34,358 nt of DNA from NCBI GenBank assembly GCA_030019415.1, contig JASEEX010000021.1, forward strand, positions 1-34,358. The letters are read 5' to 3'. This document shows, one piece after another, positions 9,313 through 31,109 of the stretch. Each line of letters begins with the position of its first letter. The stretch's first letter is position 1. A model generated the notes under the pieces. The model did no database searches. It had not been told where the DNA came from and worked only from the letters and a program-made list of their open reading frames with translations. The translations under genes were made by a program, and so were the position numbers. Source of the stretch: Thermodesulfovibrionales bacterium (GTDB lineage: Bacteria > Nitrospirota > Thermodesulfovibrionia > Thermodesulfovibrionales > SM23-35).

Positions 9313-10952
9313 AACTGAGGGAACTTCTTCAGAACGTAGATATTATCAACGTTCTTCAAGGTTGCGATTACACCCCATCCCTATCCGCCTCAGGCGGACT
9401 CCCCCTTGAAGGGGGAGGGCAGGGGTGGGGGGATATAGACGTCTCAGGTGTGGCTTATGATTCACGGGAGGCGAAAGAGGGTTACCTGTTTGTAGCTATA
9501 GAGGGTGAAAGGTACGATGGACATGATTTTATCAAAGATGCAGTTAAAAAAGGTGCAGTTGCAATAGTGCATGAAAAAGAAATTAGTCCTCGGTCATTAG
9601 TCAACAGTCAGGAGTCGGGGGTCAAGAGACAAGAGACAAGGGGTACAAATCAAGAGACTCACGACTTATCATTTATTGAGGTCAGAGACAGCAGAAAGGC
9701 ACTTGCCTGTATCGCTCATAATTTCTACGGGATGCCATCGGAGGGTCTTATACTGATTGGTATAACCGGTACAAACGGAAAGACGACTGCAGCGTATATA
9801 CTCAAGTCTATACTTGAGTCATGGGGAAAGGAAATTGGCCTGATCGGCACAATACAATACATGATAAAGGACAGGGCCTACCCTGCACCTTATACAACGC
9901 CCGAATCCTTAGAATTCCATGGTCTGTTAAAAGATATGCTCTCCTCAGGTTGCACCCATGTTATCTCAGAGGTCTCTTCCCATGCCCTTGCACAGCACAG
10001 GGTCGATAGGGCCGTTTTTAAGGCTGCAGTTTTTACGAATCTCACAAGAGACCATCTGGATTTTCATAAAACTATGGAGGATTATTTCAGGGCAAAGGAG
10101 AGATTATTTAGGGAGCTTCTTGATGAGGATGGAACCTGTGTGATAAATCTGGATGATCCCTATGGGAAGAGGCTTATCTCATCACTTACCACCGGAGTCC
10201 CCAAAAAGTCGCAAGACCTTTTGACGTACGGGTTTGAGGCTGGGGCAGATGTTGTTGCGAGTGATATTGATAGTTCATTCGGTGGATTGAGGTTCAAGAT
10301 CTTGTTCCGCGGCAGGAGTTATGATGTCTCATCTCTCCTGGTGGGTCTGCCCAATGTATATAACATCATGTCCGCAGCCGGCGTATCAATCTCCCTAGGA
10401 GTCCCGTGGCAGATAATTCTTGAAGGCATAGAAAAGACGTGTGGTGTTACGGGAAGGTTCGAGAAGGTTGACCTCGGTCAGAATTTCCTCTGCATTATTG
10501 ATTATGCCCATACAGAGAACGCCCTCGAAAGGCTGATATACACAGCAAGAGAGCTTAAAATTCGAAATTCGAAATTCGAAATTCGAAATTCGAAATCTCG
10601 AATTATCACTGTCTTTGGATGCGGGGGAGACAGAGACCGTGGTAAGAGACCCAGGATGGGCGCAGTAGCAACAAGGCTCAGTGACTTTGTTATTATAACT
10701 TCTGATAATCCGAGGTCTGAAGAACCATCCGAGATCATTAGGGAGATAGAAAGTGGGGCAGTAAAGAGAAACTATCTTATAGAACCTGATAGAAGAGAGG
10801 CGATTAGAAAGGCAGTAGATATAGCAGGCGGTAGTGATATCATCCTTATTGCAGGCAAGGGACATGAGGATTATCAAGAGATTAAAGGTGTAAGGAATAG
10901 ATTTAATGACAGGGATATTTTTGAAGAGGCGATCAGAGACCGGATTGAGTAA
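9309..10952 (+). CDS. murE: UDP-MurNAc-L-Ala-D-Glu:meso-DAP ligase, with three repeat-derived insertions
   Basis: DVSGVAYDSREAKEGYLFVAIEG; GITGTNGKTTAAY; ISEVSSHALAQHRV; TSDNPRSEEP (DNPR motif, meso-DAP type). Confidence 0.95.
   Translation: MKLRELLQNVDIINVLQGCDYTPSLSASGGLPLEGGGQGWGDIDVSGVAYDSREAKEGYLFVAIEGERYDGHDFIKDAVKKGAVAIVHEKEISPRSLVNSQESGVKRQETRGTNQETHDLSFIEVRDSRKALACIAHNFYGMPSEGLILIGITGTNGKTTAAYILKSILESWGKEIGLIGTIQYMIKDRAYPAPYTTPESLEFHGLLKDMLSSGCTHVISEVSSHALAQHRVDRAVFKAAVFTNLTRDHLDFHKTMEDYFRAKERLFRELLDEDGTCVINLDDPYGKRLISSLTTGVPKKSQDLLTYGFEAGADVVASDIDSSFGGLRFKILFRGRSYDVSSLLVGLPNVYNIMSAAGVSISLGVPWQIILEGIEKTCGVTGRFEKVDLGQNFLCIIDYAHTENALERLIYTARELKIRNSKFEIRNSKSRIITVFGCGGDRDRGKRPRMGAVATRLSDFVIITSDNPRSEEPSEIIREIESGAVKRNYLIEPDRREAIRKAVDIAGGSDIILIAGKGHEDYQEIKGVRNRFNDRDIFEEAIRDRIE
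9371..9427. repeat. GC-rich nested inverted repeat inserted in the murE N-terminus
   Basis: Outer CACCCCATCCCT/AGGGCAGGGGTG (10/12 match); inner palindrome TCCGCCTCAGGCGGA (9384-9398) and CTCCCCCTT-G-AAGGGGGAG (9399-9417). Confidence 0.8.
9584..9667. repeat. Degenerate heptamer array, ~12 units (NAGTCNN-like), within murE
   Basis: TAGTCCT CGGTCAT TAGTCAA CAGTCAG GAGTCGG GGGTCAA GAGACAA GAGACAA GGGGTAC AAATCAA GAGACTC ACGACTT. Confidence 0.75.
10561..10595. repeat. Heptamer array (TTCGAAA)x5 within murE
   Basis: Five perfect tandem units; encodes the IRNSKFE cycle. Confidence 0.95.
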
Positions 10953-11755
10953 TGTTTATCGAATTACAAGGGCTAAAGATATTTTATGAGTTTGCGGGTG
11001 AAGGGGATACCGTTGTCTTGATGCATGGGTGGGGAGGCCAGGTGGCAAGCTTAAAGCCAGTCTTTGATTATCTGTCAAAAGGCTATAAGGTATACGCTTT
11101 TGATTTTCCAGGATTTGGCAGGAGTGACCTTCCTCCGAAAACATGGGGGACAGAAGACTATGGAAAATTTGCTATGAAGTTTTTAAAGGCAGTAAACATC
11201 GAGAAGGCAAATATCGTTGCGCACTCCTTTGGAGGAAGGGTTGCTATATGGCTGGCTGCAAATTTTCCAGAAATGGTGGATAAACTGGTACTTGTTGACA
11301 GTGCTGGTATTAAGCCCAGAAGGGCATTAAAGTACTACGTCAACATAGCCATCGCAAAGGCTTGCAAGAGAATCTTATTACTTCCTATTTTTGGCAGATA
11401 TGGTCAATCTCTGCTTAATAACTTATACAGACTAGTTGGTTCTAAGGATTATCAACAACAAACCGGTATCATGAGGGCTACTCTCGTTAAGGTTGTCAAT
11501 GAAGATCTAAGATGGCTCTTGCCAAAGATTATGGCCCCGGCACTACTTATATGGGGAGAGGATGATAAGGATGTTCCCTTATATTATGCAAAGATAATGG
11601 AAAAAGAAATAAAGGACGCCGGTTTAGTTGTTCTCAAAGGTGCAGGCCATTTCTCATACCTGGACAGGTTTTCAGATTTCTGTTTAATTGTGTCAAAATT
11701 TTTTGGGAACATATTTTTGGGGGTTTTAAAGGGGCGAAGCCCCAAAGTTTTATAA
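10952..11755 (+). CDS. Alpha/beta hydrolase
   Basis: VVLMHGWGGQ; nucleophile elbow AHSFGG; LLIWGEDDKDVP; GAGHFSY. Confidence 0.88.
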   Translation: MFIELQGLKIFYEFAGEGDTVVLMHGWGGQVASLKPVFDYLSKGYKVYAFDFPGFGRSDLPPKTWGTEDYGKFAMKFLKAVNIEKANIVAHSFGGRVAIWLAANFPEMVDKLVLVDSAGIKPRRALKYYVNIAIAKACKRILLLPIFGRYGQSLLNNLYRLVGSKDYQQQTGIMRATLVKVVNEDLRWLLPKIMAPALLIWGEDDKDVPLYYAKIMEKEIKDAGLVVLKGAGHFSYLDRFSDFCLIVSKFFGNIFLGVLKGRSPKVL

Positions 11756-11784
11756 CATGTGCTTGGGTAATTCTGTTTAAAAAT

Positions 11785-13272
11785 ATGGCTAATATTCTAC
11801 TACTCATAATTGGTGTTGCTACAATTGGAACACTGCTGTTAATTACTATTTTAAGGCTTATTATGTTTCTTCACATGCTCCAACTTGAAGGGTACAGAAG
11901 TGAAAGATTTATAAAGTGGCTTACCAGGAATCCTGATAAGATATTGACAGTTACTACCATTAAAGACCCCAAGAAGAAATTAGTTTTCACTGCAAGGGCT
12001 ACAAGGCTTTTCATCTTGACACTAATGCTGTTAACCTTAGTGATATATAATCTTTCAGAGCTTTCTCTAATTATTTTTATGCTGGGGGTGTTCTTAGTCG
12101 GTTTGTTTGTTCCGTTTTTAGTTCTATTGTCCAGCATCCTGATTTATCCTTTGGAGACGGTTATCAATAATCTATATCTTAGATCAGCAAAGAAAAAGAT
12201 TAAAAAGCTGAAACCCAAGGTAATTGCTATTACTGGCAGTTATGGAAAAACAAGCACAAAGGACTTTCTGGCCTCTATTCTCTCTACTCAATATAGGGTA
12301 CTGAAAACCCCTGGGAGTTTTAATACCCCGATGGGTATTTGCAAAATAATAAGGGGTGATTTAAGACCAGATCACGAGATATTCATCGTTGAAATGGGAG
12401 CAAGGCAGAAGGGCGATATAAAAGAGCTATGCGAACTTGTGGAACCTGAGATGGGTATAATTACGGCTATAGGTCTGCAGCATCTCGAAATGTTTAAAAC
12501 AATTGAGAACATAATAAATACGAAATATGAACTGGTTGAATCATTGCCTGCTAACGGTATAGCTATATTTAATAATGACGATGAAAATTGCAGGCAACTT
12601 GCTGATAGGACACATGATAAAGAGGTTCTGCGTTATGGGATTAATGAGAACGAGGATAAACTGCATCTTATGGCAAGGGACATTTCTACGAGTAGTCAAG
12701 GAATTTATTTCATGGCACAAAATAGTAAGGGAGATGCTGTGCCTTTTCATTGCAAACTTCTGAGTAAGCATAACGTCTATAACATATTGGCAGCAGCTAC
12801 GGTTGCTTTAGAATGTAGGATGTCCCTCAATGAGATCGCAGAAGCTATACAGATGTTAGAGCCCTCACCTCACAGATTACAGTTGATTCGGGGAGCGGGA
12901 GGGGTAATTGTAATAGATGATGCCTTTAATGCAAATCCTGTGGGAGCAAAGATGGCATTGGAAGTGCTAAGTGAGTTTAAAGGTGGGAGAAAGGTTTTAG
13001 TGACACCTGGACTTGTAGAGCTTGGTGAAAGGGAATATGAGGAGAATAAACAGATAGGAATTGCAGCAGCTAAGGTATGTGATTTTGTATTTTTGATTGG
13101 CACTAAGAAGACAAGACCTATTTTTGAAGGCTTAAAAGAAGCTGGGTTCCCTGAGACAAATATATTTGTCGAAAAAAATCTGAATGGTGCAACAAAAAAA
13201 ATTAAGGATATTTTAAAGGTGGGGGACGTCGTCTTGTTTGAGAACGACTTACCGGACACGTACAATGAGTAA
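11785..13272 (+). CDS. Membrane-anchored MurF-like Mur ligase (N-terminal TM segments instead of a normal MurF N-domain)
   Basis: ~120-aa hydrophobic multi-TM N-terminus, then VIAITGSYGKTSTKDFL (P-loop), IVEMGARQKGDI, SKHNVYNILAAATVAL, VIDDAFNANPVG; ends GDVVLFENDLPDTYNE. Confidence 0.85.
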   Translation: MANILLLIIGVATIGTLLLITILRLIMFLHMLQLEGYRSERFIKWLTRNPDKILTVTTIKDPKKKLVFTARATRLFILTLMLLTLVIYNLSELSLIIFMLGVFLVGLFVPFLVLLSSILIYPLETVINNLYLRSAKKKIKKLKPKVIAITGSYGKTSTKDFLASILSTQYRVLKTPGSFNTPMGICKIIRGDLRPDHEIFIVEMGARQKGDIKELCELVEPEMGIITAIGLQHLEMFKTIENIINTKYELVESLPANGIAIFNNDDENCRQLADRTHDKEVLRYGINENEDKLHLMARDISTSSQGIYFMAQNSKGDAVPFHCKLLSKHNVYNILAAATVALECRMSLNEIAEAIQMLEPSPHRLQLIRGAGGVIVIDDAFNANPVGAKMALEVLSEFKGGRKVLVTPGLVELGEREYEENKQIGIAAAKVCDFVFLIGTKKTRPIFEGLKEAGFPETNIFVEKNLNGATKKIKDILKVGDVVLFENDLPDTYNE

Positions 13273-13312
13273 TTCTAAGCTGATGTATAAATTTAAAAGA
13301 GAAAGTTAAAAA

Positions 13313-14479: not shown

Positions 14480-14523
14480 GGAAATGAACGATCCCGAGAT
14501 TTTGAGAGGGAGCATGGTTAGAG

Positions 14524-15606: not shown

Positions 15607-16679
15607 AAAACAGTAGTCAGAATACAGTAGTCAGTAGTCAGGAAAGGCATAAAGGATATCTATTTATTCTTCTACTGTTTACTGTTTACTGTTTACTGTT
15701 TACTGTCGCTTATGCTGATGAGATTCATCCCCGGGCCGCAGTCGTGATGGATGCATCAACGGGGAGGATCCTGTATGCGAAAAATCCGAATCTCAGGCTT
15801 CCTCCAGCAAGTACAACAAAGCTGATGGCAGCAATAGTAGCCATAGAGAAGGCAGACCTTTCGGATGTTATAAGGGTAAGCAAAAATGCCTCTCGTGCCT
15901 CTCCTTTAAAGGCTGGCTTCGAAGAAGGGGATGAGGTAACGGTTGAGACACTTCTTTATGCTGCACTACTGGAGTCTGCAAATGATGCTGCTGTTGCCTT
16001 AGCAGAAGCGGTGGCTGGTTCTGAGAAAAGGTTTGTCCATCTCATGAATAGAAAGGCGATTGCTATTGGGTTAAAGGATACTAAGTTCATAAACTCCAGT
16101 GGGCTTCCTGGCCCTGGCCAGTATATCACTGCATTTGATTTGTCAAAGATAATGAGGTATGCCCTTAGATATCCCAAACTGAAAGAGATAATTGGAACCC
16201 GTGTGGCAGGGGTCTCGACAGAAAAGGGAAATGACTTGTTTCTAAAAAACACAAACAGGCTTTTATGGTCTGATGAAGACCTTATAGGAGGAAAGACGGG
16301 ATATACACGTAGGGCAAGGCATTGTTTTGTATGTGCTGCTGAACGAGAGAAGGAGATAGCTATCGTTGCCCTCCTCGGGAGCCCAAGTAGAGAGGATCTC
16401 TGGAAAGAAACGGAGGAATTAATTGGCAAGGGATTCCAGATAATGGCGAATAAAGAAGAGCCTGTCATCTATTTTACAAAGTCAGATTATGACTCCTTTA
16501 ATCTGAAAAGGGCATCCTATAAAAAAAGTTTAAAGTTTAAAGTTAAAAGTTCAAAGTTAAAGGAAAAGACAAAATTTGCAAAGAAAAAGGGTAAGGTGAA
16601 GACAGTTGCAAAGATTAAAAACAAGAAAGGGAAGAATTACAGGGTTGTAAAGAAAGGTGGGGATGGAAATAAGGGATAA
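15603..16679 (+). CDS. D-alanyl-D-alanine carboxypeptidase (PBP5/DacA family), repeat-encoded signal peptide and Lys-rich tail
   Basis: PASTTKLMAA (SxxK), SANDA (SxN), GGKTGYT (KTG); ATGA overlap with mraY. Confidence 0.9.
   Translation: MKNSSQNTVVSSQERHKGYLFILLLFTVYCLLFTVAYADEIHPRAAVVMDASTGRILYAKNPNLRLPPASTTKLMAAIVAIEKADLSDVIRVSKNASRASPLKAGFEEGDEVTVETLLYAALLESANDAAVALAEAVAGSEKRFVHLMNRKAIAIGLKDTKFINSSGLPGPGQYITAFDLSKIMRYALRYPKLKEIIGTRVAGVSTEKGNDLFLKNTNRLLWSDEDLIGGKTGYTRRARHCFVCAAEREKEIAIVALLGSPSREDLWKETEELIGKGFQIMANKEEPVIYFTKSDYDSFNLKRASYKKSLKFKVKSSKLKEKTKFAKKKGKVKTVAKIKNKKGKNYRVVKKGGDGNKG
15611..15638. repeat. Heptamer array CAGTAGT-like x4
   Basis: CAGTAGT CAGAATA CAGTAGT CAGTAGT. Confidence 0.8.
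15673..15706. repeat. Heptamer array (TACTGTT)x4.9 encoding the DacA signal-peptide core
   Basis: TACTGTT TACTGTT TACTGTT TACTGTT TACTGT. Confidence 0.95.
16527..16561. repeat. Heptamer array AGTTTAA-like x5 in the dacA 3' region
   Basis: AGTTTAA AGTTTAA AGTTAAA AGTTCAA AGTTAAA. Confidence 0.85.
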
Positions 16680-18153
16680 AAAAGTGACGGTTGTGGGCCT
16701 CGGCAGGAGCGGTATAGGAGCAGCAAATCTACTCTCTGAAATCGGGTCAGAAGTGACAGTAACAGACAGCAAAACAGAAGACGGGCTTAAGGATTTTATA
16801 GCGAGGCTTAACCCTTCAGTTAGGCTTGCTCTGGAAGGACACCCCGAGGACTTATTCGTATCAACTGATATGTTAGTCGTAAGCCCGGGGGTCCCTCTCG
16901 ACATTTTACCTATATCAAAAGCAAAGGAAAAAAGGATCCCCATAATTGGGGAGCTCGAGCTGGCATACCAGATAATTCGAAATTCGAAATTCGAAATTCG
17001 AAACTCGAAACTCCTTGCTGTCACAGGGACAAATGGAAAATCAACAACAACGACCCTCCTTAACTTAATTCTCAGAAAGGGTGGTTTCAGAACAATCATC
17101 GGAGGGAATATAGGGAGTGCACTGACTGAGGAGATACTAAAATTAGTCAAGAGTCAGGAGTCATCCGCCTCAGGCGGAGTCAGTAGTCAAAAGACTCTCG
17201 ACTATATTGTTGCTGAGGTGTCGAGCTTTCAGCTCGAGTCGATAAAGGATTTTAGGCCAAAAGTAGCTGCGATACTCAATATTACACCTGACCACCTTGA
17301 CAGATACCATTCACTCGAAGAGTACATGGATGCAAAGGCAAGGATATTTGAAAACCAGAGGGAAGATGATTTCCTGGTGCTTAATGCGGATGATCCGGTA
17401 ATAATGAAAGTTAAAAGTGAGAAGTTGAAAGTTAAAAGTGAAAGGCCAAGAGTTCTTTACTTCAGTCGGAAACAAGAGGTTAATGGTGTTTATTTCAAAG
17501 ATGGAGGAATCTGTTGCAATTTGCCCCCAATGACGGGGATAGTCCCGATTCTACCGCCTTTGGCCGGTAAATCTGGGACAGTCCCCTCTGCCCCTTTGCC
17601 CCTGATAAGGGCTGATGAGATAAAGATAAAGGGAGTCCATAACCTGGAGAATGCCATGGCCGCTTCAGCTATGGCTCTCCTTGCAGACTGCCCCTTGGAT
17701 GCAGTGATAGATTCATTGAGGGAATTTCATGGGCTTGAGCACAGGCTTGAATTTGTCAGAGAGATAAACGGTGTCAGGTATTTTAATGATTCAAAGGGAA
17801 CGAATGTCGGTGCGGTAACCAAGTCACTTGGAAGCTTTACGGAGCCGATTATCCTGATTGCAGGGGGCAGGGATAAGTCAGGAGATTTCTCGCCCTTGAG
17901 GGATTTAGTAAAAGAAAAGGTGAAGGCCCTTGTACTTATTGGTGAGGCTGGTGAAAAGATAAAGAGGTCACTCGGAGACCTTACAGAGACAGTCATGGCT
18001 AAGGACTTAAAAGAGTCTGTAAATATATCACGCAATATGGCAGTAAAAGGTAATGTTATCCTCCTTTCTCCTGCATGTGCCAGTTTTGATATGTTCTTGG
18101 ATTTTGAGGACAGGGGAAAGCAGTTTAAGAAGATAGTAATGGAGATGACGTGA
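16657..18153 (+). CDS. murD: UDP-N-acetylmuramoylalanine--D-glutamate ligase, with several repeat-derived insertions
   Basis: KVTVVGLGRSGIGAA; LLAVTGTNGKSTTTTLLN; AEVSSFQLESI; NDSKGTNVGAVTKSL; LSPACASFDMFLDFEDRGKQF. Confidence 0.95.
   Translation: MGMEIRDKKVTVVGLGRSGIGAANLLSEIGSEVTVTDSKTEDGLKDFIARLNPSVRLALEGHPEDLFVSTDMLVVSPGVPLDILPISKAKEKRIPIIGELELAYQIIRNSKFEIRNSKLLAVTGTNGKSTTTTLLNLILRKGGFRTIIGGNIGSALTEEILKLVKSQESSASGGVSSQKTLDYIVAEVSSFQLESIKDFRPKVAAILNITPDHLDRYHSLEEYMDAKARIFENQREDDFLVLNADDPVIMKVKSEKLKVKSERPRVLYFSRKQEVNGVYFKDGGICCNLPPMTGIVPILPPLAGKSGTVPSAPLPLIRADEIKIKGVHNLENAMAASAMALLADCPLDAVIDSLREFHGLEHRLEFVREINGVRYFNDSKGTNVGAVTKSLGSFTEPIILIAGGRDKSGDFSPLRDLVKEKVKALVLIGEAGEKIKRSLGDLTETVMAKDLKESVNISRNMAVKGNVILLSPACASFDMFLDFEDRGKQFKKIVMEMT
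16976..17010. repeat. Heptamer array TTCGAAA x4 + CTCGAAA in murD
   Basis: Same heptamer and same unit count as in murE (10561-10595). Confidence 0.95.
17145..17191. repeat. AGTCNNN heptamers interrupted by palindrome TCCGCCTCAGGCGGA (17164-17178) in murD
   Basis: AGTCAAG AGTCAGG AGTCATC CGCCTCAGGCGG AGTCAGT AGTCAAA. Confidence 0.85.
17407..17441. repeat. Heptamer array AAAGT(T/G)A-like x5 in murD
   Basis: AAAGTTA AAAGTGA GAAGTTG AAAGTTA AAAGTGA. Confidence 0.85.
17535..17586. repeat. Inverted-repeat insertion in murD
   Basis: GGGGATAGTCCC (17535-17546) / GGGACAGTCCCC (17575-17586), 10/12 complementary; translated as part of PPMTGIVPILPPLAGKSGTVPSAPLPL. Confidence 0.65.
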
Positions 18154-19346
18154 TGGATAAATATGACAAATGGCTTCTATTCATCACTCTTGTTCTTATA
18201 GTCTTTGGCGCCCTCATGATATACAGCTCAACCTCTGTTATCACACCTGCCCTTGCAAAGAAAGGAATTACTGAATTTTATTACTTCAAGAGGCATATAT
18301 TTACAATCCTTATAGGATTCGGCTTTATGTTTCTTGCCTATAGGATGAGTCTCTCTTATCTCAAGAAGATGGCTATCCCCCTTCTGATTTTTTCTTTTGT
18401 GCTATTATTACTTGTTTTCCTACCCGGTATTGGTGTTACTGCTGGGGGTGCAGAGAGATGGATAAAACTCTGGCCTTCGACCTTCCAACCGTCAGAGCTT
18501 GTAAAGCTCTCCATGGTCATATTCCTCGCAGGGTACTTGTCAGCACTTGGCTATAGGGCAGATAGTTTCGCATCTTTTATAAAACCCATTTTTATCATGA
18601 TAATATTCCAGGCAGTTATTCTCAAGCAGCCAGACTTCGGGGCTGTTATGAGCCTTACATTTCTCACATTCGCAATGCTCTTTCTTTCAGGAACGAGGCT
18701 CAGATATCTCTTTTTCCTTTCTGCGCCTGCCCTCCTGATACTGTACAAACTCATTATGGAACCTTACCGCCTCAGAAGGGTGATGTCCTTTCTTGACCCG
18801 TGGAAGGATCCCCAGGGCAGTGGTTTCCAGCTTGTGCAGTCCTTTATTGCCTTCGGCAGCGGAGGCCTGACAGGTGTTGGTCTCGGCGGTTCCAAACAGA
18901 AATTATCTTACCTACCTGAGTCACACACAGATTTTATCTTTTCTATTATCGGGGAAGAGTTCGGTTTTATAGGCGTCTTAATTGTTATGGCCCTTTTTCT
19001 GCTCTTATTCATCAGGGGTATATCTATTGCAAATAAGACAAAGGACGGGTTTGCCTATCACTTAGCGGTAGGACTTTCACTGATGATCTCCATACAGGCC
19101 CTCATCAACTTCGCTGTTGCCGCAGGCATGGTGCCTACAAAGGGGTTACCACTACCATTTATCAGTTATGGCGGGTCATCTCTCCTTGTGAATATGGCTG
19201 CTATCGGAATACTCCTTAATATATCAAGGGGAAATGATAATGGAGATATGGAGGGCTTAAACAAAAAGACGTTTGCGCGGAGGAAGGCAAAAAAGGGTAT
19301 TTATAACGATTCACGATTCACGATTCACGGTTTACGGACGATATGA
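18150..19346 (+). CDS. ftsW: Lipid II polymerase / SEDS family FtsW
   Basis: Multi-TM; GAERWIKLWPSTFQPSELVKLSMVIFLAGYL; DFIFSIIGEEFGFIG; PLPFISYGGSSLLVNM. Confidence 0.96.
   Translation: MMDKYDKWLLFITLVLIVFGALMIYSSTSVITPALAKKGITEFYYFKRHIFTILIGFGFMFLAYRMSLSYLKKMAIPLLIFSFVLLLLVFLPGIGVTAGGAERWIKLWPSTFQPSELVKLSMVIFLAGYLSALGYRADSFASFIKPIFIMIIFQAVILKQPDFGAVMSLTFLTFAMLFLSGTRLRYLFFLSAPALLILYKLIMEPYRLRRVMSFLDPWKDPQGSGFQLVQSFIAFGSGGLTGVGLGGSKQKLSYLPESHTDFIFSIIGEEFGFIGVLIVMALFLLLFIRGISIANKTKDGFAYHLAVGLSLMISIQALINFAVAAGMVPTKGLPLPFISYGGSSLLVNMAAIGILLNISRGNDNGDMEGLNKKTFARRKAKKGIYNDSRFTIHGLRTI
19307..19334. repeat. Heptamer array CGATTCA x3 + CGGTTTA at the ftsW 3' end
   Basis: CGATTCA CGATTCA CGATTCA CGGTTTA, encoding part of SRFTIHGLRT. 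Confidence 0.88.
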
Positions 19347-20449
19347 GGGTGATAATAGCAGGGGGAGGGACAGGAGGACATCTTTTCCCGGGACTGGCGA
19401 TAGCTGAAGAGTTCAAAAATAGAGATGGCGGGACAGAGATAATATTTGTTGGAACAGAGTGTGGTATAGAGGCAAGGATGGTACCGAGGGAGGGATATAC
19501 AATAAAGTTTTTGAGGGCAGAAGGTGTGGTGGGTGTATCAGCTCTCAAGAAGATAAAGGCAATAATGAAGACGTTTCTTTCCATCATAGATTCTTACAAG
19601 ATCATCAAGATGGTGAAGCCTGCTATAGTGATAGGTGTTGGTGGATACGCATCAGGGGTGATTATGCTTATATCATCTCTAATGTCAATACCAACTATGA
19701 TACTCGAACAGAATTGCATACCAGGACTTACGAATAGAGTCCTCGGGAGATTCGTAAGGGCCATTTGCATAACTTATCAAGAGAGTATCCCTTTCTTTCC
19801 AAAGGCAAAGACCTTCCTTACAGGTAACCCTGTCAGGAGGCATATACTCAAGGGTAGCAGTGAGTCTGGATATAGGCTTTTTTTCCTCGAAAGGGGTTTA
19901 TTTACTGTCTTTGTCTTTGGAGGTAGTTTGGGAGCAAGGAGTATTAACATGGCGGTTGTAGATTCCCTTAGCTATATGCATAACTTGAGAGATAAGATTC
20001 AGTTCCTTCATCAGACAGGTATGAGAGACTATGAAAATGTCAGGGATGCCTACAGGAGGCTTGGGTTCAAAGGGACGGTCACACCTTTTATATATCAAAT
20101 GAGTGAGGCTTATGCTGTCGCTGATATAGTAATCTCAAGGGCTGGGGCAACAACTCTTGCAGAACTGACCGCTCTCGGAAAGCCGGCCATTTTAATCCCT
20201 TATCCCTATGCAGCCGGACACCATCAAGAATTGAATGCGAGGAAACTCCTCGAGATGGGTGCAGCGAGGATGGTACCTGACAGTGAACTTAGCGGTGAAT
20301 CCCTTGCCCATAGCATAGGGGAGCTTTATGAGAATGAGACGATCAGGGCAGAGATGCGAAAGAATAGCAGGGCCCTCGGAAGACCTGAGGCATGTGCTAA
20401 GGTAGTCGATATAGCAATGAGCCTCCTTAAAAATAGTTATAAGTTATAA
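19343..20449 (+). CDS. murG: UDP-GlcNAc--lipid I N-acetylglucosaminyltransferase
   Basis: VIIAGGGTGGHLFPGLAIAEE; GGYASGVIMLISSL; FGGSLGARSIN; ISRAGATTLAELTALGKPAILIPYPYAAGHHQELNA. Confidence 0.97.
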   Translation: MRVIIAGGGTGGHLFPGLAIAEEFKNRDGGTEIIFVGTECGIEARMVPREGYTIKFLRAEGVVGVSALKKIKAIMKTFLSIIDSYKIIKMVKPAIVIGVGGYASGVIMLISSLMSIPTMILEQNCIPGLTNRVLGRFVRAICITYQESIPFFPKAKTFLTGNPVRRHILKGSSESGYRLFFLERGLFTVFVFGGSLGARSINMAVVDSLSYMHNLRDKIQFLHQTGMRDYENVRDAYRRLGFKGTVTPFIYQMSEAYAVADIVISRAGATTLAELTALGKPAILIPYPYAAGHHQELNARKLLEMGAARMVPDSELSGESLAHSIGELYENETIRAEMRKNSRALGRPEACAKVVDIAMSLLKNSYKL

Positions 20450-20476
20450 GTTATAAGTGATGAGTGGAAAGTGAGA
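20435..20476. repeat. Heptamer array AGTTATA x3 grading into AGTGNNN, spanning the murG stop
   Basis: AGTTATA AGTTATA AGTTATA AGTGATG AGTGGAA AGTGAGA. Confidence 0.85.
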
Positions 20477-20503
20477 ATACAGAAGACAGGCAATAAACCC
20501 GTT

Positions 20504-20526
20504 ACGCATTACGCATTACGCGTTAC
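20504..20526. repeat. Heptamer array ACGCATT x2 + ACGCGTT, murG-murC intergenic
   Basis: ACGCATT ACGCATT ACGCGTT AC. Confidence 0.85.
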
Positions 20527-20534
20527 TTTTTTAG

Positions 20535-21965
20535 GTGAGCATCGTGTTTGAGAGATACAGGGTAATACATTTTGTCGGGATAGGCGGCATAGGAATGTCA
20601 GGTATTGCGGAGGTGCTTCATAACCTCGGCTATGAGGTTACGGGGTCCGATCTAAAGGATTCAGAGACGACAAGAAGATTGAGGGGTTTAGGTATAAAGG
20701 TCTATATTGGACATGTAGCAGAAAATATAGATGATGCCCATGTAGTTGTCGTCTCCTCAGCTGTTTCGGGCCATAATCCTGAAGTCGTTGAGGCAAAGAG
20801 AAGGTCTATCCCTGTAATACCTCGTGCAGAGATGCTTGCAGAGCTGGCAAGGCTTAAATACGGGATACTCGTTGCTGGGGCCCATGGAAAGACGACAACA
20901 ACATCCTTAATATCTACGATCCTTGCCTATGCTGGTTTCGACCCTACGGTTATTATAGGAGGAAGACTAAAGGCAACAGCCAGCAATGCAAGATTAGGTC
21001 AGGGAGAATTCCTTGTTGCGGAGGCTGATGAAAGCGATGGTTCATTTCTGAAACTTTCTCCAACGATAGCAATTGCAACAAGCATAGACAGGGAACACAT
21101 AGATTTCTTCAAGACAATGGATTCTTTGAAAGAGGCCTTCCTCTCTTTCTTGAATAAGATTCCCTTTTATGGTGTATCAATAGTCTGTATTGAGAACGAG
21201 CATTTGCGCGCACTTCTATCATCCCTCCACAGAAGGTACATCACCTATGGATTTGGCAGTGGAGCAGAAATTTATGCGAAAAATATCAGAAAAGGTTTTA
21301 TGTCAGTTAGCTTTGAAGCAATCTATAAAGGCATGGACATAGGCAATTTCGAGCTTCCCCTGTCAGGAGAGCATAATGTCCTTAATAGCCTGGCTGCTAT
21401 AGGAGTGGCTTTAGAACTACAGATAGATATACCAACAATAAGGGAGGCCCTGAGGAGATTTGGAGGTATACAGAGGAGATTCGAATTTAAGGGCGAGGTA
21501 AAGGGAATAAAGGTATTTGATGACTATGGTCACCACCCCACAGAGATAAAGGCAACCCTGAAGGCTGCCAAGGAAGGACTCCTTCTTAAAACTCAAAACT
21601 CAAAACTCAAAACTCAAAAGTGTGGAAGACTATTTGTCATATTCCAACCTCATAGGTATACGAGGACAAGAGACCTGATGGATGAGTTTTCTACTTCTTT
21701 CAATGATGCAGATTCTCTCATCCTTCTGGATATTTATCCTGCAGGGGAGAGACCTATAGATGGCGTTAGTTCATCAACCTTATTTGAGGGGATTAAAAAA
21801 GCAGGTCATAACAGTGTTGTGTACATAGAAGATGGGAAAGATGCAATAAAACATATTACATCAATTATGAGGAGAGGTGATATTCTTCTTACCCTCGGAG
21901 CGGGTGATGTATGGAAGATAGGCGATGAAATACTTAATAAGTTAAAAGTGAAAAGTGAAGAGTGA
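20535..21965 (+). CDS. murC: UDP-N-acetylmuramate--L-alanine ligase
   Basis: IHFVGIGGIGMSGIAEVLHNLGYEVTGSD; VAGAHGKTTTTSLIS; EADESDGSFLKLSP; DDYGHHPTEIKATL; FQPHRYTRTRDL. Confidence 0.97.
   Translation: MSIVFERYRVIHFVGIGGIGMSGIAEVLHNLGYEVTGSDLKDSETTRRLRGLGIKVYIGHVAENIDDAHVVVVSSAVSGHNPEVVEAKRRSIPVIPRAEMLAELARLKYGILVAGAHGKTTTTSLISTILAYAGFDPTVIIGGRLKATASNARLGQGEFLVAEADESDGSFLKLSPTIAIATSIDREHIDFFKTMDSLKEAFLSFLNKIPFYGVSIVCIENEHLRALLSSLHRRYITYGFGSGAEIYAKNIRKGFMSVSFEAIYKGMDIGNFELPLSGEHNVLNSLAAIGVALELQIDIPTIREALRRFGGIQRRFEFKGEVKGIKVFDDYGHHPTEIKATLKAAKEGLLLKTQNSKLKTQKCGRLFVIFQPHRYTRTRDLMDEFSTSFNDADSLILLDIYPAGERPIDGVSSSTLFEGIKKAGHNSVVYIEDGKDAIKHITSIMRRGDILLTLGAGDVWKIGDEILNKLKVKSEE
21591..21618. repeat. 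Heptamer array (ACTCAAA)x4 in murC, preceded by degenerate TCTTAAA
   Basis: Four perfect units; encodes KTQNSKLKTQ. Confidence 0.93.
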
Positions 21966-21973
21966 AAAGTTAA
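21939..21973. repeat. Heptamer array AAGT(T/G)AA x5 over the murC stop and murB start
   Basis: AAGTTAA AAGTGAA AAGTGAA GAGTGAA AAGTTAA. Confidence 0.9.
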
Positions 21974-22884
21974 AAGATATATTTTCTGGAGACCTCTTTA
22001 AAGGTGAAACGAGATTTATGGAGCCCATGATGAACCATACATCGCTAAGGATAGGAGGGCCTGCGGATGTCTTTGTCATACCTCGAGATTTCCCCTCCCT
22101 AAAAAATATTTTGGTTATCTTGAAAAAAAGGGGGATACCCTTTTTGCCTCTGGGTGGTGGAACAAATGTCTTAGTGAGAGATGGAGGCATAGAGGGGGTT
22201 GTTATATCCCTCAAGTCTTTCAGAAAGATCGAAATCTTGAGTGAGGATAAGGTGAATGTAAAAGTATATGTTGAGGCAGGGACACCCGTTCAGAGGCTTG
22301 TGAACTTCTCGAGGGAGAAGGGTTATTCAGGTATAGAGGGCCTTGCAGGTATACCAGGCTTTGTCGGTGGAGCAATCTGTGGAAATGCAGGGGCCTTTGG
22401 CTATGAGATGAAAGATGTGCTTATCTCAGTTTCGATAATGGATGCCGAGGGTAGGGTCGAGAGGTTAAGGGAGAAGGATATTGACTTTGGATACAGAAAG
22501 TCAAGTATTTCCTCAACTGAACTGCTTCTCAGTGCAGAGATAATACTCGAGAAGGATAAAGAGGAATACGTTTCTGCGAGGATAGAGGATTTCTTAAAGA
22601 GGAAATGGGAGAGCCAGCCTATCTCGGAATCATCTGCCGGCTGTGTATTTAAAAACCCTCACGGATTATCTGCAGGGATGTTGATAGATGAGGCAGGATG
22701 CAAGGGTATGAGAATCGGTGATGTTGAGGTAAGCAGCATCCATGCGAGTTTCTTTATAAATAAGGGTAGGGCGAGGGCCTCTGATTTTATCAGACTCATG
22801 GAGGAGGTTACTCAAAGGGTTAAGAAGAGATTCGGCATCCTGCTCGAACCGGAGATAAGGATAGTAGGGAGAAATGAAGTTTAA
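21955..22884 (+). CDS. murB: UDP-N-acetylenolpyruvoylglucosamine reductase
   Basis: NHTSLRIGGPADVFVIPRD; LPLGGGTNVLVRDGGIEGVVI; GLAGIPGFVGGAICGNAGAFG; SSAGCVFKNPHG; GTG start. Confidence 0.96.
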   Translation: MKSEKLKDIFSGDLFKGETRFMEPMMNHTSLRIGGPADVFVIPRDFPSLKNILVILKKRGIPFLPLGGGTNVLVRDGGIEGVVISLKSFRKIEILSEDKVNVKVYVEAGTPVQRLVNFSREKGYSGIEGLAGIPGFVGGAICGNAGAFGYEMKDVLISVSIMDAEGRVERLREKDIDFGYRKSSISSTELLLSAEIILEKDKEEYVSARIEDFLKRKWESQPISESSAGCVFKNPHGLSAGMLIDEAGCKGMRIGDVEVSSIHASFFINKGRARASDFIRLMEEVTQRVKKRFGILLEPEIRIVGRNEV

Positions 22885-23635
22885 AGCTAAAAGTTTAAAA
22901 TTAAAAGTTATCGCTGTTTTCATGTTCATCTTTACAATCGTAATATTTGTATATATTTGCCCCGTTAGAAAAAATATTTCTAACGGGGTTTGCTCACGTC
23001 CAATAAGATCAGTATTACCTATTAAACATGTTGTGTTTATCGGGAATAGACATCTAACAGACGATGAACTCAGGGTACTCGCGGGGATTCATATGAATGA
23101 AAGTCTGGTTACTATTTCAGGCAAAAGGGTGAGTCAGAGGTTGCTCAAATCTCCATGGATCAGGTCCGTAAGTGTGAGGAAAGAATTCCCCGGGACCTTA
23201 TCAGTGTTGATAGGTGAAGCGACACCCTTTGCACTTCTTGATATGAATGGCCATCTTTTTCTCATAGATGAGAAGGGTAAACTCTTAGAAGAGCTTAAAG
23301 ATGATCCGATCCCTTTCCTTCCTATAATCACAGGTGATCCATTTAAAGAAGGCGAGGGTTTTTCAGAGGCCCTTAACCTTGCGAGGTCAATGAATGACAT
23401 GGGGTTTTTTTCAGAAAGGGACCACATTGAGATAGTTGTATCTAAGCCTCAGGAACTTACCGTAATAATCGATGGAACTGTTGTTAAGGTAGGGTCAGGA
23501 GAGTATGGAGAAAAACTCGAAAGACTGATTGAATTGGAGGAAGAGATAAAGAGGAGGAAGATGCCCGTTGATTACGTAGATTTACGATTTGCGAATAGAG
23601 TGGTTGTGAAACCTATAAAAGAGGTGATTAAGTGA
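22874..23635 (+). CDS. ftsQ: Cell division protein FtsQ (POTRA)
   Basis: N-terminal TM, KHVVFIGNRHLTDDELRVLAGI POTRA start, position between murB and ftsA. Confidence 0.88.
   Translation: MKFKAKSLKLKVIAVFMFIFTIVIFVYICPVRKNISNGVCSRPIRSVLPIKHVVFIGNRHLTDDELRVLAGIHMNESLVTISGKRVSQRLLKSPWIRSVSVRKEFPGTLSVLIGEATPFALLDMNGHLFLIDEKGKLLEELKDDPIPFLPIITGDPFKEGEGFSEALNLARSMNDMGFFSERDHIEIVVSKPQELTVIIDGTVVKVGSGEYGEKLERLIELEEEIKRRKMPVDYVDLRFANRVVVKPIKEVIK
22877..22911. repeat. Degenerate heptamer array x5 over the murB stop / ftsQ start
   Basis: AAGTTTA AAGCTAA AAGTTTA AAATTAA AAGTTAT. Confidence 0.8.
22960..22988. repeat. Minimal CCCCGTTAGAAA element inside ftsQ
   Basis: CCCCGTTAGAAA-AAATA-TTTCTAACGGGG, perfect 12-bp arms with 5-bp loop; translated CPVRKNISNGV. 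Confidence 0.95.
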
Positions 23636-24843: not shown

Positions 24844-24868
24844 AATTTGGATAAAAGAGGAGGTGTGT

Positions 24869-26026: not shown

Positions 26027-26095
26027 GTTCCCTCCACCCCGAGGAGCTCCCATCCCCGGGGGCTTCTCCCCTCCTTTACATTTCACACCTCTCAC

Positions 26096-26140
26096 ACCTC
26101 CCCAAACCCCTCCTTGCCAAGGAGGGGATAAAGGGGAGGT
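26096..26140. repeat. Nested GC-rich inverted repeat downstream of ftsZ
   Basis: Outer ACCTCCCC (26096-26103)/GGGGAGGT (26133-26140), inner CCCCTCCTTG-C-CAAGGAGGGG (26107-26127). Confidence 0.85.
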
Positions 26141-26225
26141 TATGTGAGTTTTTGTTACTTACATCAAAGAATTGTTCATTTCAGGTATCATATTTGGAAA
26201 TTCAAACAGGGAGTAATCGCTTAAA

Positions 26226-27338: not shown

Positions 27339-27411
27339 CAATCTGTGCCGTCAGGTCTGACCTGACAGAAAATCTTGTATCATTATGTAGGTTAAGAATT
27401 TGCCGTGATAA

Positions 27412-28425
27412 TCATTGGAGACGCTGCATTTTTATTTCATAGCACTGATGTGCTAATTCTATAAGCTCATTGAATCCCCATGTCCCCCGGTCAGTCAGAC
27501 AATGTGATAGGTGTGATGGGATTGCATCGAGTCCGAGGTAGGCGCCGCTGATTGCCCCTGCCATTGCTGCTGTTGTGTCTACATCCCCACCTACTGCAAT
27601 AGCTGTACAGATGGTTTCCCAGTAGTCTTCGGGTGTCCTGAGGAAAGAATAGAGACTCCACAGTACACTGCTAACAACGAATGGTGATATACCCTGCCAT
27701 TCCTCTTCATAAAGGTAATTAGCATCAATGCCAGCCTTAGAGATAAAAGTCACAGCACTTTCAGGTGGCATAGAAACCCACTCAATAAGTTTTTTAAGTT
27801 CAGAGGCAAAAGCAGGTTCACTTTTACCTGACAAGTCCGCAAGAGAGGACAGAAAGGATTCAGGATTTGTTGGTTTGCCTTGAAGCACCAAGGCTACGGC
27901 GCCACTAATAGCGACTGCACCTGCTGAACACCTTGGATCCTTATGGGTGATACGGCCTTGATCATAAGCTGCCTGGATAAGAAGATGTGTATTGTCAAAA
28001 AAGATCAGACCTATAGGAGCGGCCCGCATAGCGCTGCTATTACTAGCAGAAGGAGCTGGTGTGCCAGCTTCTTCCCATGGTACTCCCCGGATGAGTCTTA
28101 ATGCTGCTTCTCTGGTTGACTGACCCCACCCTACAATTCTCCTCTCGGCAAAGATAGCCTTAATCCGCTCTGCATAGTCACGGGGATCAAATTTTTTGCA
28201 GGCGATATAGCTTTGAAGAAGCTCACGGGCAAGTTGAGAATCATCTGAATATTGTCCAAAAGGAAAGGGCCAATGGCCAAACTCTCCTGCCCTCCCTGTT
28301 TTTAATACATCTTCGACATACCTTTTGCAGGCCTCAGGTGAAAAACCTTCAACGGCAAAACCGAGGGCATCCCCCATGCACTGACCAATCAGACAACCAC
28401 TGAACTGTTCTCTATGGGGCAGCAT
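27412..28425 (-). CDS. ADP-ribosylglycohydrolase family protein
   Basis: GQCMGDALGFAVEG; YSDDSQLARELLQSY; AVGGDVDTTAAMAGAISGAYLGLDAIP. Confidence 0.9.
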   Translation of the reverse strand: MLPHREQFSGCLIGQCMGDALGFAVEGFSPEACKRYVEDVLKTGRAGEFGHWPFPFGQYSDDSQLARELLQSYIACKKFDPRDYAERIKAIFAERRIVGWGQSTREAALRLIRGVPWEEAGTPAPSASNSSAMRAAPIGLIFFDNTHLLIQAAYDQGRITHKDPRCSAGAVAISGAVALVLQGKPTNPESFLSSLADLSGKSEPAFASELKKLIEWVSMPPESAVTFISKAGIDANYLYEEEWQGISPFVVSSVLWSLYSFLRTPEDYWETICTAIAVGGDVDTTAAMAGAISGAYLGLDAIPSHLSHCLTDRGTWGFNELIELAHQCYEIKMQRLQ

Positions 28426-28557
28426 AATCTTGATTTTTAATATTTCACGGAATTAAATAATAAAAATTTATATCCCTTCAAACCTATTTTATCAATAGCA
28501 AAGAATTGGAACATTTATCATAATTATTTTATCTATCCCTTATAATAAATCAACCGA

Positions 28558-30207
28558 ATGAGCCGAAAACTAAAAGAAAAAATAGACTATCTGCTATCCA
28601 GAGAAAAAGGGACTGTTTATAAAGACCCTGGGGGCAGGATTAGTATTGCTCTCGTTTATCCGAATACATACCATGTCGGGATGTCAAACCTCGGTTTTCA
28701 GGGAATTTATGGTCTTCTGAACAAGATGTATGATGTTGTATGCGAAAGGGTTTTCCTTCCCGAGGATGAGGATATGGAGGAATACATCAGGACAGATACA
28801 GAACTTTTCTCTATGGAATCAAAGAGACCCCTTAGTCATTTCGATATCGTTGCATTCTCCGTCTCTTTTGAAAATGATTATCCAAACATCTTAAAGATAT
28901 TAAAGTTATCCAAGCTTCCCCTCAGAAGTTCAGAGAGGAATCCCCATCATCCCTTAATCATTATGGGTGGCGTCTGTGCCTTTTTCAACCCTGAACCAGT
29001 TGCAGATTTTTTTGATGTCTGTTTCATAGGAGAGGCAGAGGAGATGCTGCCTGAATTCCTTGGTGTTTATAAGTCCTCCGTAGACAGGTCCGAGGTCTTA
29101 AAAAAGTCTATAACTGTGGAAGGTCTCTATGTCCCTGAATTCTACAGCATATCTTACGATAAGAAAGGGAAGATATCAGGAAGGTGTGAGTCTGAAAATG
29201 CCCCTGAAATAATAAAAAGGCGTTACCTAAAAGATGTAACGATGTCAGACATCAAGACATCGGTTGTTACGCCTGAGACAGAATTCTCTGGTATGTGTCT
29301 GATAGAGGCAATGAGGGGATGTCCCTGGTCATGCAGATTCTGTGCGGCAGGCCACATATATAATCCGTTTCGGAAGAAAGCACTACAGGCACTGGAGGAT
29401 GAGATTAGATTCGCCCTCACAAAAACGAAGAGGATAGGCCTTATAGGTCCTTCCCTTTCGGATTATCCTGATATAAAAGAGGTTCTTAAAATCCCGGGAG
29501 TCGATTTCTCGATTACGTCTCTCAGGGCAAGTGCAAAGAGTGCTGAACTGGTGAGTTTACTGAAGGGCCATAAGAGTGTCTCAATTGCGCCTGAAGCAGG
29601 GACTGAACGAATAAGAAGGGTTATCAATAAAAGGATTACAGAAGAGGATATCCTTCAGACATCAGAGCTCATCTTTTCTGAGGGTATCTATACCCTCAGG
29701 CTTTATTTTATGGTTGGCCTACCAACGGAAACGAGGGGAGATATTGCAGGAATAATCAATCTTGTCAGAAAGATAAGAGATGTATCACCTAAAGGGAACA
29801 TTGCTTTGAGCATCAGTACCTTTGTTCCGAAACCCTTCACGCCTTTTCAGTGGCATCCGATGGAGAACCCTTCAGAGGTAAAGGAGAGATTGAAGATGAT
29901 TAAAAAGGGCCTGCTTCCAACAGAAGGTATTAAGGTGTTCCACGATGTTCCAAAGTATGCATATATGCAGGGATTATTTTCCCAGGGAGACAGAAAGGTA
30001 TCAAAAGCAGTTGAAGAGATGTTGGGGATTCATGACTGGAGAAAAGCAGCAGAGGCAGCAGGGATCAAAGAGGACTTTTATATCTTCAGGAAAAAAGAAT
30101 TTAACGAAATCCTTCCTTGGGATTTTATTGATATCGGGATAAGTAAAGAAAAACTCTGGGCTGAGTACCAGGAGGCCCTTTTTTATTCTGAAGATTCTCC
30201 TTCTTGA
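28558..30207 (+). CDS. Radical SAM protein (B12-binding-type, TIGR03960-like)
   Basis: MRGCPWSCRFCAAGHIYNPFRKK (CxxxCxxC); VYPNTYHVGMSNLGFQGIYGLLN N-terminus; SIAPEAGTERIRRVINK. Confidence 0.88.
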   Translation: MSRKLKEKIDYLLSREKGTVYKDPGGRISIALVYPNTYHVGMSNLGFQGIYGLLNKMYDVVCERVFLPEDEDMEEYIRTDTELFSMESKRPLSHFDIVAFSVSFENDYPNILKILKLSKLPLRSSERNPHHPLIIMGGVCAFFNPEPVADFFDVCFIGEAEEMLPEFLGVYKSSVDRSEVLKKSITVEGLYVPEFYSISYDKKGKISGRCESENAPEIIKRRYLKDVTMSDIKTSVVTPETEFSGMCLIEAMRGCPWSCRFCAAGHIYNPFRKKALQALEDEIRFALTKTKRIGLIGPSLSDYPDIKEVLKIPGVDFSITSLRASAKSAELVSLLKGHKSVSIAPEAGTERIRRVINKRITEEDILQTSELIFSEGIYTLRLYFMVGLPTETRGDIAGIINLVRKIRDVSPKGNIALSISTFVPKPFTPFQWHPMENPSEVKERLKMIKKGLLPTEGIKVFHDVPKYAYMQGLFSQGDRKVSKAVEEMLGIHDWRKAAEAAGIKEDFYIFRKKEFNEILPWDFIDIGISKEKLWAEYQEALFYSEDSPS

Positions 30208-30261
30208 TGAGATGGATAAGACCTGATACTATATTACTGCTTTGCCCATACCAAGTATTTG

Positions 30262-30365
30262 CCCCGTTAGAAAGCCCCGCCTTGAAAGGCGGGGATGTGT
30301 TGTATATGAAAAAATTTGATACCTTTTAGAAAGGATGGGGTATAGCCCCATCCTTTCTAACGGGG
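30262..30365. repeat. Composite CCCCGTTAGAAA element with two nested hairpins upstream of yggS
   Basis: Outer CCCCGTTAGAAA (30262-30273)/TTTCTAACGGGG (30354-30365); inner CCCCGCCTT-GA-AAGGCGGGG (30275-30294) and TTAGAAAGGATGGGG/CCCCATCCTTTCTAA (30326-30340/30346-30360). Confidence 0.9.
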
Positions 30366-30371
30366 GTTACT

Positions 30372-31109
30372 ATGAAAAGCGACATGAAGAGCAAAATGAC
30401 GGATTCGGCACTTTTCGAAAATATAAAAACTATATACAGGCAGATTTCCCATGCTGCAATGGGAGCGGGGAGAGAACCCGGGGATGTAAAGCTCATTGCT
30501 ATCACGAAGACTGTAGATGCAAGGAGGATAAAAGAGGCGATAGATTGGGGGCTTAGGATATTTGGAGAGAGCAGGGTTCAGGAAGCAAAGGTTAAGATTG
30601 AAGAGTTTTCAAGACTATCGACTATCGACTACCGACTACCGACTATTTCGTGGCATCTCGTAGGACATCTCCAGAAGAACAAAGCAAAAACAGCAGTGCA
30701 GCTTTTTGACCTTATCCATTCCCTCGACTCCATAGAACTTGCAGAGGAGTTAGACAAACATGCCGAAAGGGCTGGAAAGTTCCAGAGGGTCTTGATACAG
30801 GTGAAACTCTCAGAAGAAGAGACAAAGCATGGTGTTCCGAAAGAAGGCCTTGCGGATTTAATTGAGGTTGTGGCAGAAATGAAAAATCTGAAGATCGAGG
30901 GACTAATGACTATACCCCCTTTTTTTGATGACCCTGAGATGGCAAAACCTTATTTTAGAGAGTTAAGGGAATTGAGGGATAATGCTGTGAAGTCAGGATA
31001 CGAGCTACCAGAACTTTCTATGGGAATGACTCATGATTTTGAGATAGCCATAGAAGAGGGTGCGACAATGGTAAGGATAGGGACGGCAATATTCGGAGAA
31101 AGGAAGTAA
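30372..31109 (+). CDS. YggS family pyridoxal phosphate-dependent / PLP homeostasis protein
   Basis: VKLIAITKTVDARRIKEAIDWGLRIFGESRVQEA; WHLVGHLQKNKAK; HSLDSIELAEEL; LSMGMTHDFEIAIEEGATMVRIGTAIFG. Confidence 0.93.
   Translation: MKSDMKSKMTDSALFENIKTIYRQISHAAMGAGREPGDVKLIAITKTVDARRIKEAIDWGLRIFGESRVQEAKVKIEEFSRLSTIDYRLPTISWHLVGHLQKNKAKTAVQLFDLIHSLDSIELAEELDKHAERAGKFQRVLIQVKLSEEETKHGVPKEGLADLIEVVAEMKNLKIEGLMTIPPFFDDPEMAKPYFRELRELRDNAVKSGYELPELSMGMTHDFEIAIEEGATMVRIGTAIFGERK
30613..30647. repeat. Heptamer array GACTA(T/C)C x5 within yggS-like gene
   Basis: GACTATC GACTATC GACTACC GACTACC GACTATT. Confidence 0.92.

Follow-up and report, generated by a model that had tools for sequence, protein, structure and literature searches.

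Dispersed seven-base-pair tandem arrays in the division and cell-wall gene cluster of a Nitrospirota genome and in its relatives

The window analyzed here is a stretch of 34,358 bp on contig C80 of a 1.94-Mb metagenome-assembled genome (MAG, 166 contigs) of a Thermodesulfovibrionales bacterium, hereafter the own genome (G000). It carries a division and cell-wall (dcw) cluster with ftsI, murE, a murF-like gene, ddl, mraY, a dacA-like gene, murD, ftsW, murG, murC, murB, ftsQ, ftsA, and ftsZ, and yggS lies further along. Tandem arrays of 7-bp units (heptads) are dispersed through these genes and the gaps between them (Table 1). The arrays have a common period, length, and core, they are paired convergently, and they occur patchily in the phylum; sister species differ in the elements found at shared sites. 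The genome-wide array statistics refer to a 750-kb sample of the own MAG, which leaves out many contigs below ~1 kb (e.g., C1, C5, C10) and a few of 2–3 kb (C135, C140) with N runs. The compared genomes are also MAGs with partly masked stretches, and gene calls are based on open reading frames (ORFs).

Period, length, and core of the arrays

Tandem Repeats Finder (TRF) listed period-7 arrays at the places named in a first-pass annotation of the window. The scored scan of the window found 12 arrays of period 7 and 0–1 at each of the remaining periods in the range 4–12, and 100 dinucleotide-preserving shuffles of the window contained on average 0.09 and at most 1 period-7 array. Among exact arrays with at least nine matched positions in the own-genome sample, 100 had period 7, 24 had period 12, and periods 4, 5, 6, 8–11, and 13 had 3–13 each. 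Period 14 accounted for 56 exact arrays, part of which are two-heptad units. Seven is the sole strongly enriched tandem period in this sample. Period 8 formed a second, weaker tandem excess.

The array length peaked at 32–34 bp, or about five units: 16 of the 120 scored arrays were 32 bp long, 17 were 34 bp long, and only five were longer than 41 bp. Exactly five units were found in 45/75 AGT-core runs of the own genome, 37/60 of G032, and 34/50 of other relatives; G032 and G151 are two species of one genus (g28). Seven AGT runs in 7-bp steps in the own genome had six or more units. A different length was seen in the 6-Mb Nitrospirota genome G175, whose GATTGAC and GATTGAT arrays are long, with at least ten units, unlike the five-unit rule. 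The first-pass annotation had proposed an enrichment of period 7 with about five units, and it was borne out genome-wide by the 100 period-7 arrays and the 32–34 bp peak. It had also listed seven arrays of five units (35 bp). The five-unit length is real, and the arrays at 16527, 17407, 21939, and 22877 are imperfect.

The unit contained AGT or ACT in 73 of the 120 arrays, compared with 17.6% of random 7-mers (binomial p = 6e-26); letter-shuffled units gave a mean of 34 and a maximum of 52. The mismatch within AGT arrays was 1–5% at the A, G, and T positions and 4–13% at the other four positions, which makes AGT the best-kept part of the unit. Both results contradict the earlier statement that the arrays share no unit sequence. 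The accompanying statement that no single transposing element gave rise to them by copying was supported: the heptad arrays are not copies of one another. The exact AGTx5 pattern occurred in 82 of 198 sampled Nitrospirota genomes, with very uneven counts within genera (37 in G203, 0 in G137).

Table 1. Heptad arrays and two-arm elements of the window.
Position	Strand	Location	Array	Peptide
9584..9640	+	murE	degenerate AGTC-core heptad run: AGTCAAC AGTCAGG AGTCGGG GGTCAAG AGACAAG AGACAAG	SLVNSQESGVKRQETRGTNQET	
10558..10596		murE loop	TTCGAAA x5.6, 39 bp	KIRNSKFEIRNSK
15612..15704	+	dacA signal peptide	two-arm element: left arm CAGTAGT/AGTAGTC, spacer, right arm TACTGTT x5		
16525..16558	+	dacA 3′ end	AAAGTTT-type, 5 AGT units	KSLKFKVKSSKLK	
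16974..17013		murD loop	TTCGAAA x5.7, 40 bp	IIRNSKFEIRNSK	
17145..17163	+	murD	short AGTCAAG array, 2.7 units	
17407..17443	+	murD	imperfect AAGTTAA/AAGTGAA	KVKSEKLKVKSE	
19306..19337	-	ftsW 3′ end, upstream of murG start	ACGATTC x4.6	
20435..20526		fills murG-murC gap	two-arm element: AGTTATA x3 + AGTGATG AGTGGAA AGTGAGA, spacer, TTACGCA x3.6		
21588..21619	-	murC loop	AAAACTC x4.6 (other strand AGTTTTG)	LKTQNSKLKTQ	
21939..21976	+	murC end into murB start	AAGTGAA x5.4, imperfect	
22877..22909	+	ftsQ start	imperfect AGTTTAA run, 5 units	
30613..30646	-	yggS	GACTATC x4.9 (other strand AGTCGAT)	STIDYRLPTI	

The protein alignments showed that the arrays sit in loops that vary between genera. Only 3 of 16 aligned relatives (G001, G004, G014) had long inserts in the murE loop at 9584. 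Arrays similar to the one at murE 10558 occur at five further places in the own genome, and this loop contains different repeats or ordinary sequence in other genera. The MurD loop at 16974 has 12–14 amino acids in many relatives, array or none: AATTCAA is found in G004 and G032, AGTCAGG-like units in G029, and AATTCAG in G009, while G008 and G017, whose dcw clusters are array-free, have ordinary sequence of similar length. Added DNA as a general rule was ruled out, since the MurE and MurD loop arrays add no length relative to array-less relatives. The murD loop at 17145 has two-arm elements in G001 (L058 10751-10831) and G151 and AGT/ACT arms in G032, and most relatives have no repeat in the murC loop at 21588. 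The array at the dacA 3′ end has a nearly identical counterpart at the same place in G004, a member of another genus (L057 9357-9388).

The possibility that the arrays are conserved protein sequence in all orthologues was not borne out overall. The exception is the MurD peptide KVKSEKLKVKSE at 17407, which is kept across most of the family and marks an old array; G032 has a GATTCAA array there. The repeat-derived peptides TPSLTLPPRGGGQGWGG and PHPPLTKGG were seen in the same enzyme loops of relatives (L058 10074, 10528, and other dcw loci; murE and murD alignments). For annotation, peptides such as IRNSKFEIRNSK, LKTQNSKLKTQ, and STIDYRLPTI should be regarded as repeat-derived filler in ordinary enzymes. 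With regard to phase variation by unit number, murE, murD, and murC are essential in other bacteria; a change of one unit would shift their reading frame, and the frames are open across the relatives compared.

Facing arms and shared sites in sister species

Many arrays are arms of a two-arm element with the anatomy (AGTNNNN)5, short spacer, (NNNNACT)5. Neighboring AGT runs less than 150 bp apart formed 34 '+-' pairs (AGT then ACT), 3 '-+' pairs, and 2 same-strand pairs, and the chance expectation was ~1.3–1.8 pairs per data set. This inverted pairing had been overlooked in the first-pass annotation. A core-free test showed that neighboring arrays were similar to one another's reverse complement in 10/10 cases in the own genome, 9/11 in G032, and 13/14 in G151. 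The dacA element in the window has AGT in the left arm and ACT in the right arm, both on the + strand, and a predicted RNA fold of -25.2 kcal/mol. The right arm TTACGCA of the murG-murC element has a CGT core on the - strand.

Each of the three '-+' intervals encloses a tRNA gene. tRNA genes flanked by heptad arms, with the ACT side before and the AGT side after and two-arm elements adjoining, were seen at L118 8089-8303 and 9485-9653 and at L143 11784-12014.

The paired elements lie almost all between co-directional genes or within ORFs and hardly ever at divergent or convergent junctions, which ruled out a promoter or terminator role. Single arms are mostly intragenic, in either orientation. 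The orientation relative to the coding strand was strongly biased in genus g28 (19:1 in G151, 11:0 in G032); the own genome (3:2) and other genera (1:3) showed no such bias, and a fixed orientation was therefore rejected as a general rule. The mirrored N positions of the two arms matched at 0.47, little above the 0.42 for re-dealt arms, and base pairing at N4/N7 in G151 was near or below the shuffled level. An RNA hairpin under selection thus had no support from covariation and was rejected. Rfam gave no match in the window, which ruled out a known RNA family.

The sister species G032 and G151 have ~91–94% DNA identity on alignment and different preferred cores: the counts of exact AGTx5 and GATx5 were 140 and 10 in G032, and 24 and 124 in G151. 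The G151 elements consist of (GATNCAN)4-GAT and its mirror arm on the two sides of a loop, which is often 7 nt long. They form 21 '+-' pairs, nine of which are exactly 69 bp long, with a pairwise identity of 0.84 on average and 0.93 at most among the nine (~20% of the genome sampled). The variation lies mainly at N4 and N7, and GAT and CA stay fixed. With this sequence pattern, the GAT elements do not resemble a set recently copied from one master element.

G032 and G151 were compared over ~120 kb of shared gene order with 74 gene junctions. Both species had an element at 10 junctions, G032 only at 6, G151 only at 2, and neither at 56 (Fisher p = 6e-7); shared occupancy at junctions with gaps > 20 bp in both gave p = 1e-5. 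Thus, 10 of the 12 junctions occupied in G151 are also occupied in G032. The two species have different repeat types at seven of the ten shared junctions (AGT versus GAT at four, octamer-unit elements at two) and the same type at three. None of the 12–13 GAT elements of G151 that could be placed is shared with G032, and the flanks are intact on both sides. At the ftsW-murG junction (19306..19337 in the window), an AGT element in G032 corresponds to a GAT element in G151, with 71 bp in each genome and flanks of 94/97% identity, and a further example is a junction with flanks of 96/96%. In one MurD loop of G001 and G019, a heptamer pair in one genome corresponds to a stretch built of octamers in the other, and both are 98 bp long. 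The birth of an array is seen in G140: its AAATCYC array lies at a site with ordinary sequence in G100, G030, and G122, and the G100 sequence at this site contains the near-seed AAATCCTCAATTGA.

Arrays of octamer units (GGTGAATC, AGAGCAGA), whose arms face each other as in the heptad elements, were found in L059 (orthologous to L058 10740-10838) and in G032 opposite G151 90943-91015. Other small hairpin repeats are present or absent between G032 and G151 in their dcw clusters (L068, L167), for example AAACCCCGTTAGAGATGTATCTCTAAACGGGGT and a GTCATTGCGAG...CTCGCAATGACA element. Part of them are inserted inside heptad arrays or coding loops.

Possible origins of the arrays

The arrays belong to a genome-wide class of small dispersed repeats, here called "heptad-array elements", and we propose, at roughly even odds, that these are written de novo and replace older elements. 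One arm comprises about five 7-bp units with a 3- to 5-base core (AGT in the own genome, GATNCA in G151). Many elements consist of two convergent arms with a short spacer between them, which could form an imperfect hairpin, and single arms are mostly intragenic, in permissive protein loops. New arms may come from slippage-like or templated synthesis that runs over some five heptads, and the core it prefers would differ between species. They may take the place of older elements, at sites that are permissive or prone to hairpins, rather than spread as exact copies. The arms were probably written anew and not copied, because in genomes as alike as G032 and G151 there was hardly scope for the N4/N7 diversity to build up or for the cores to be converted by point mutation. 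The earlier suggestion of a mechanism that generates or templates heptamers may hold and is likelier in light of the sister-species data. It is possible, and we propose it only tentatively, that an active system writes the five-heptad arms de novo at many chromosomal sites, with a species-specific core set in trans and rewriting in place, and without reverse transcriptase or Y1 transposase.

Several observations weigh against the proposal of de novo writing. No AGT was found in 47 of the 120 arrays. Some orthologous arrays are conserved (G032 10500 = G151) or differ only by whole units (29 versus 15 bp in G179 and G196), and part of the single arrays have the look of local sequence that slipped in the ordinary way. 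The swapped sites of G032 and G151 give no direction of change, and a small set of permissive gaps, repeatedly hit, could be partly behind the site sharing. No enzyme or template was found, and we therefore infer de novo writing from the pattern.

Candidate machinery was considered. A reverse-transcriptase template was ruled out by the absence of RVT_1 from the own genome, G032, and G151. The Y1_Tnp domain (RAYT/IS200) is present in the own genome and in array-poor genomes and absent from the array-rich G151 and G064, which ruled out RAYT/IS200 as the writer. SbcD was below the cut-off in 15 of 16 array-rich genomes and likewise in most array-poor ones; it neither drives arrays nor separates rich from poor genomes, and SbcCD hairpin cleavage was ruled out as a required step. 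G-quadruplex formation was also ruled out, as the units AGTTNAN, GATNCAN, and TTCGAAA have no G tracts of three or more.

Ordinary polymerase slippage could produce heptamers from local sequence, with 7 nt suiting the polymerase contact (a 2007 proposal cited in PMC4692102), instability capping the length, and AGT as a side effect of composition. Many bacteria are known to have an excess of heptamers (PMC4692102), perfect tandem repeats are frequent among the single arrays, G179 and G196 differ by two units, and the local seed AAATCCTCAATTGA precedes the G140 array. Slippage from a near-heptamer seed can explain at least this one birth, but not the core, the inverted pairing, or the five units. 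The AGT count exceeds that expected from composition (73 observed, at most 52 shuffled), 34 of 39 neighboring pairs are convergent, and the lengths peak at five units instead of decaying. Homogenizing slippage would also not leave N4 and N7 variable in G151 with GAT and CA fixed. Slippage is a plausible source of single arrays, and we consider it unlikely as the full explanation.

Two further explanations take the elements as mobile or as binding sites. Transposase-spread, non-autonomous elements like REPINs or miniature inverted-repeat transposable elements, with repeat-built arms, would account for the convergent palindromic build, the ~100 or more copies per genome, the patchy, lineage-specific families, and the presence or absence at some sites (51227 in the G032/G151 alignment; G032 5679), and turnover of families at permissive sites could mimic the swaps. 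However, the copies are unlike outside the core, AGT-family spacers are not shared, no target-site duplication was seen by eye in the listed flanks, and Y1_Tnp is missing from the array-rich G151 and G064, so that this origin seems quite improbable. Alternatively, each arm may be a row of contiguous 7-bp sites at which a multimeric protein that binds DNA or RNA, similar to omega (ParB) of pSM19035, recognizes the core bases, with selection keeping five sites per arm. This is in line with the fixed core, free positions, and about five contiguous units; ParB(pSM) requires at least four contiguous 7-bp repeats (PMC9499535), and several G151 elements lie directly upstream of start codons, similar to the Beggiatoaceae TAACTGA repeats (PMC4679880). 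We rate it as quite unlikely, since a drift in specificity would require the conversion of hundreds of sites while the flanks stay 90–97% identical. Many arrays also lie within cell-wall and division genes in either orientation, and no binding protein was identified, no candidate having been sought.

Relation to known heptad systems

An excess of heptamers in bacteria has been noted since at least 2007, with no accepted cause. The heptad arrays described here are built by a rule: an arm has about five units that share a core, and two arms face each other. Sister species differ in the core at the same places. With such a rule, the writer of the arms and the determinant of the core become testable questions. 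The first-pass annotation knew of no description for this kind of genome. For Nitrospirota, none was found in the open-access papers searched; comparable heptad repeats have been described in Xanthomonas, Nostoc, Beggiatoaceae, and Bacteroidetes (PMC4692102, PMC4679880). Heptad repeats themselves are already known, and the new part is the anatomy of two five-unit arms, with cores that are specific to the species, and the swapping in place.

The GGGAATC/GGGANTN repeats of Xanthomonas match this anatomy closely, with dispersed heptads, a conserved core with variable positions, and convergent pairs. Each genome has ~185 dispersed heptad arrays with 70–75 convergent inverted pairs; positions 1–4 and 6 of GGGANTN are conserved, the commonest length is four units, and long repeats lie at different genes in two species (PMC4692102). 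They were read as G-quadruplex formers, whereas the AGT and GAT cores have no G tracts. The arrays here differ further in having five units per arm, many intragenic positions, a core that depends on the species, and sites that are shared between species but occupied by different elements.

TAACTGA repeats occur in marine Beggiatoaceae, Cyanobacteria, and Bacteroidetes with 2–6 copies per set, patchily over the phyla and often directly upstream of start codons (PMC4679880). They are also dispersed heptad direct repeats, and their other strand AGTTATC contains the AGT core. They have one fixed unit, are mostly intergenic, and in Beggiatoaceae mostly have one orientation, whereas many core-sharing units and convergent pairs were found here. 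The short tandemly repeated repetitive sequences (STRR) of heterocystous cyanobacteria are dispersed heptamers as well. In 250 kb of Trichormus variabilis plasmid A, period 7 was the commonest, and several of nine arrays had AGT units (AGTCAGG, AGTTAAC, AGTCATT). The sole neighboring pair on this plasmid was inverted, but it is the only pair seen, and the phylum and flanking genes differ.

REPIN/BIME elements with RAYT (Y1_Tnp) resemble the two-arm elements as inverted pairs of short repeats with ~100 or more copies in lineage-specific families (PMC3116915). They are not built of heptads. The elements here are not near-identical copies, and G151 lacks Y1_Tnp. The parS sites of pSM19035 (omega/ParB) consist of contiguous 7-bp units, at least four of which are needed, and the complementary strand of the unit WATCACW is WGTGATW, which is similar to AGTGATG (PMC9499535). 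That plasmid has six sites of 7–10 units, compared with hundreds of chromosomal sites of five units and a changing core in the genomes studied here.

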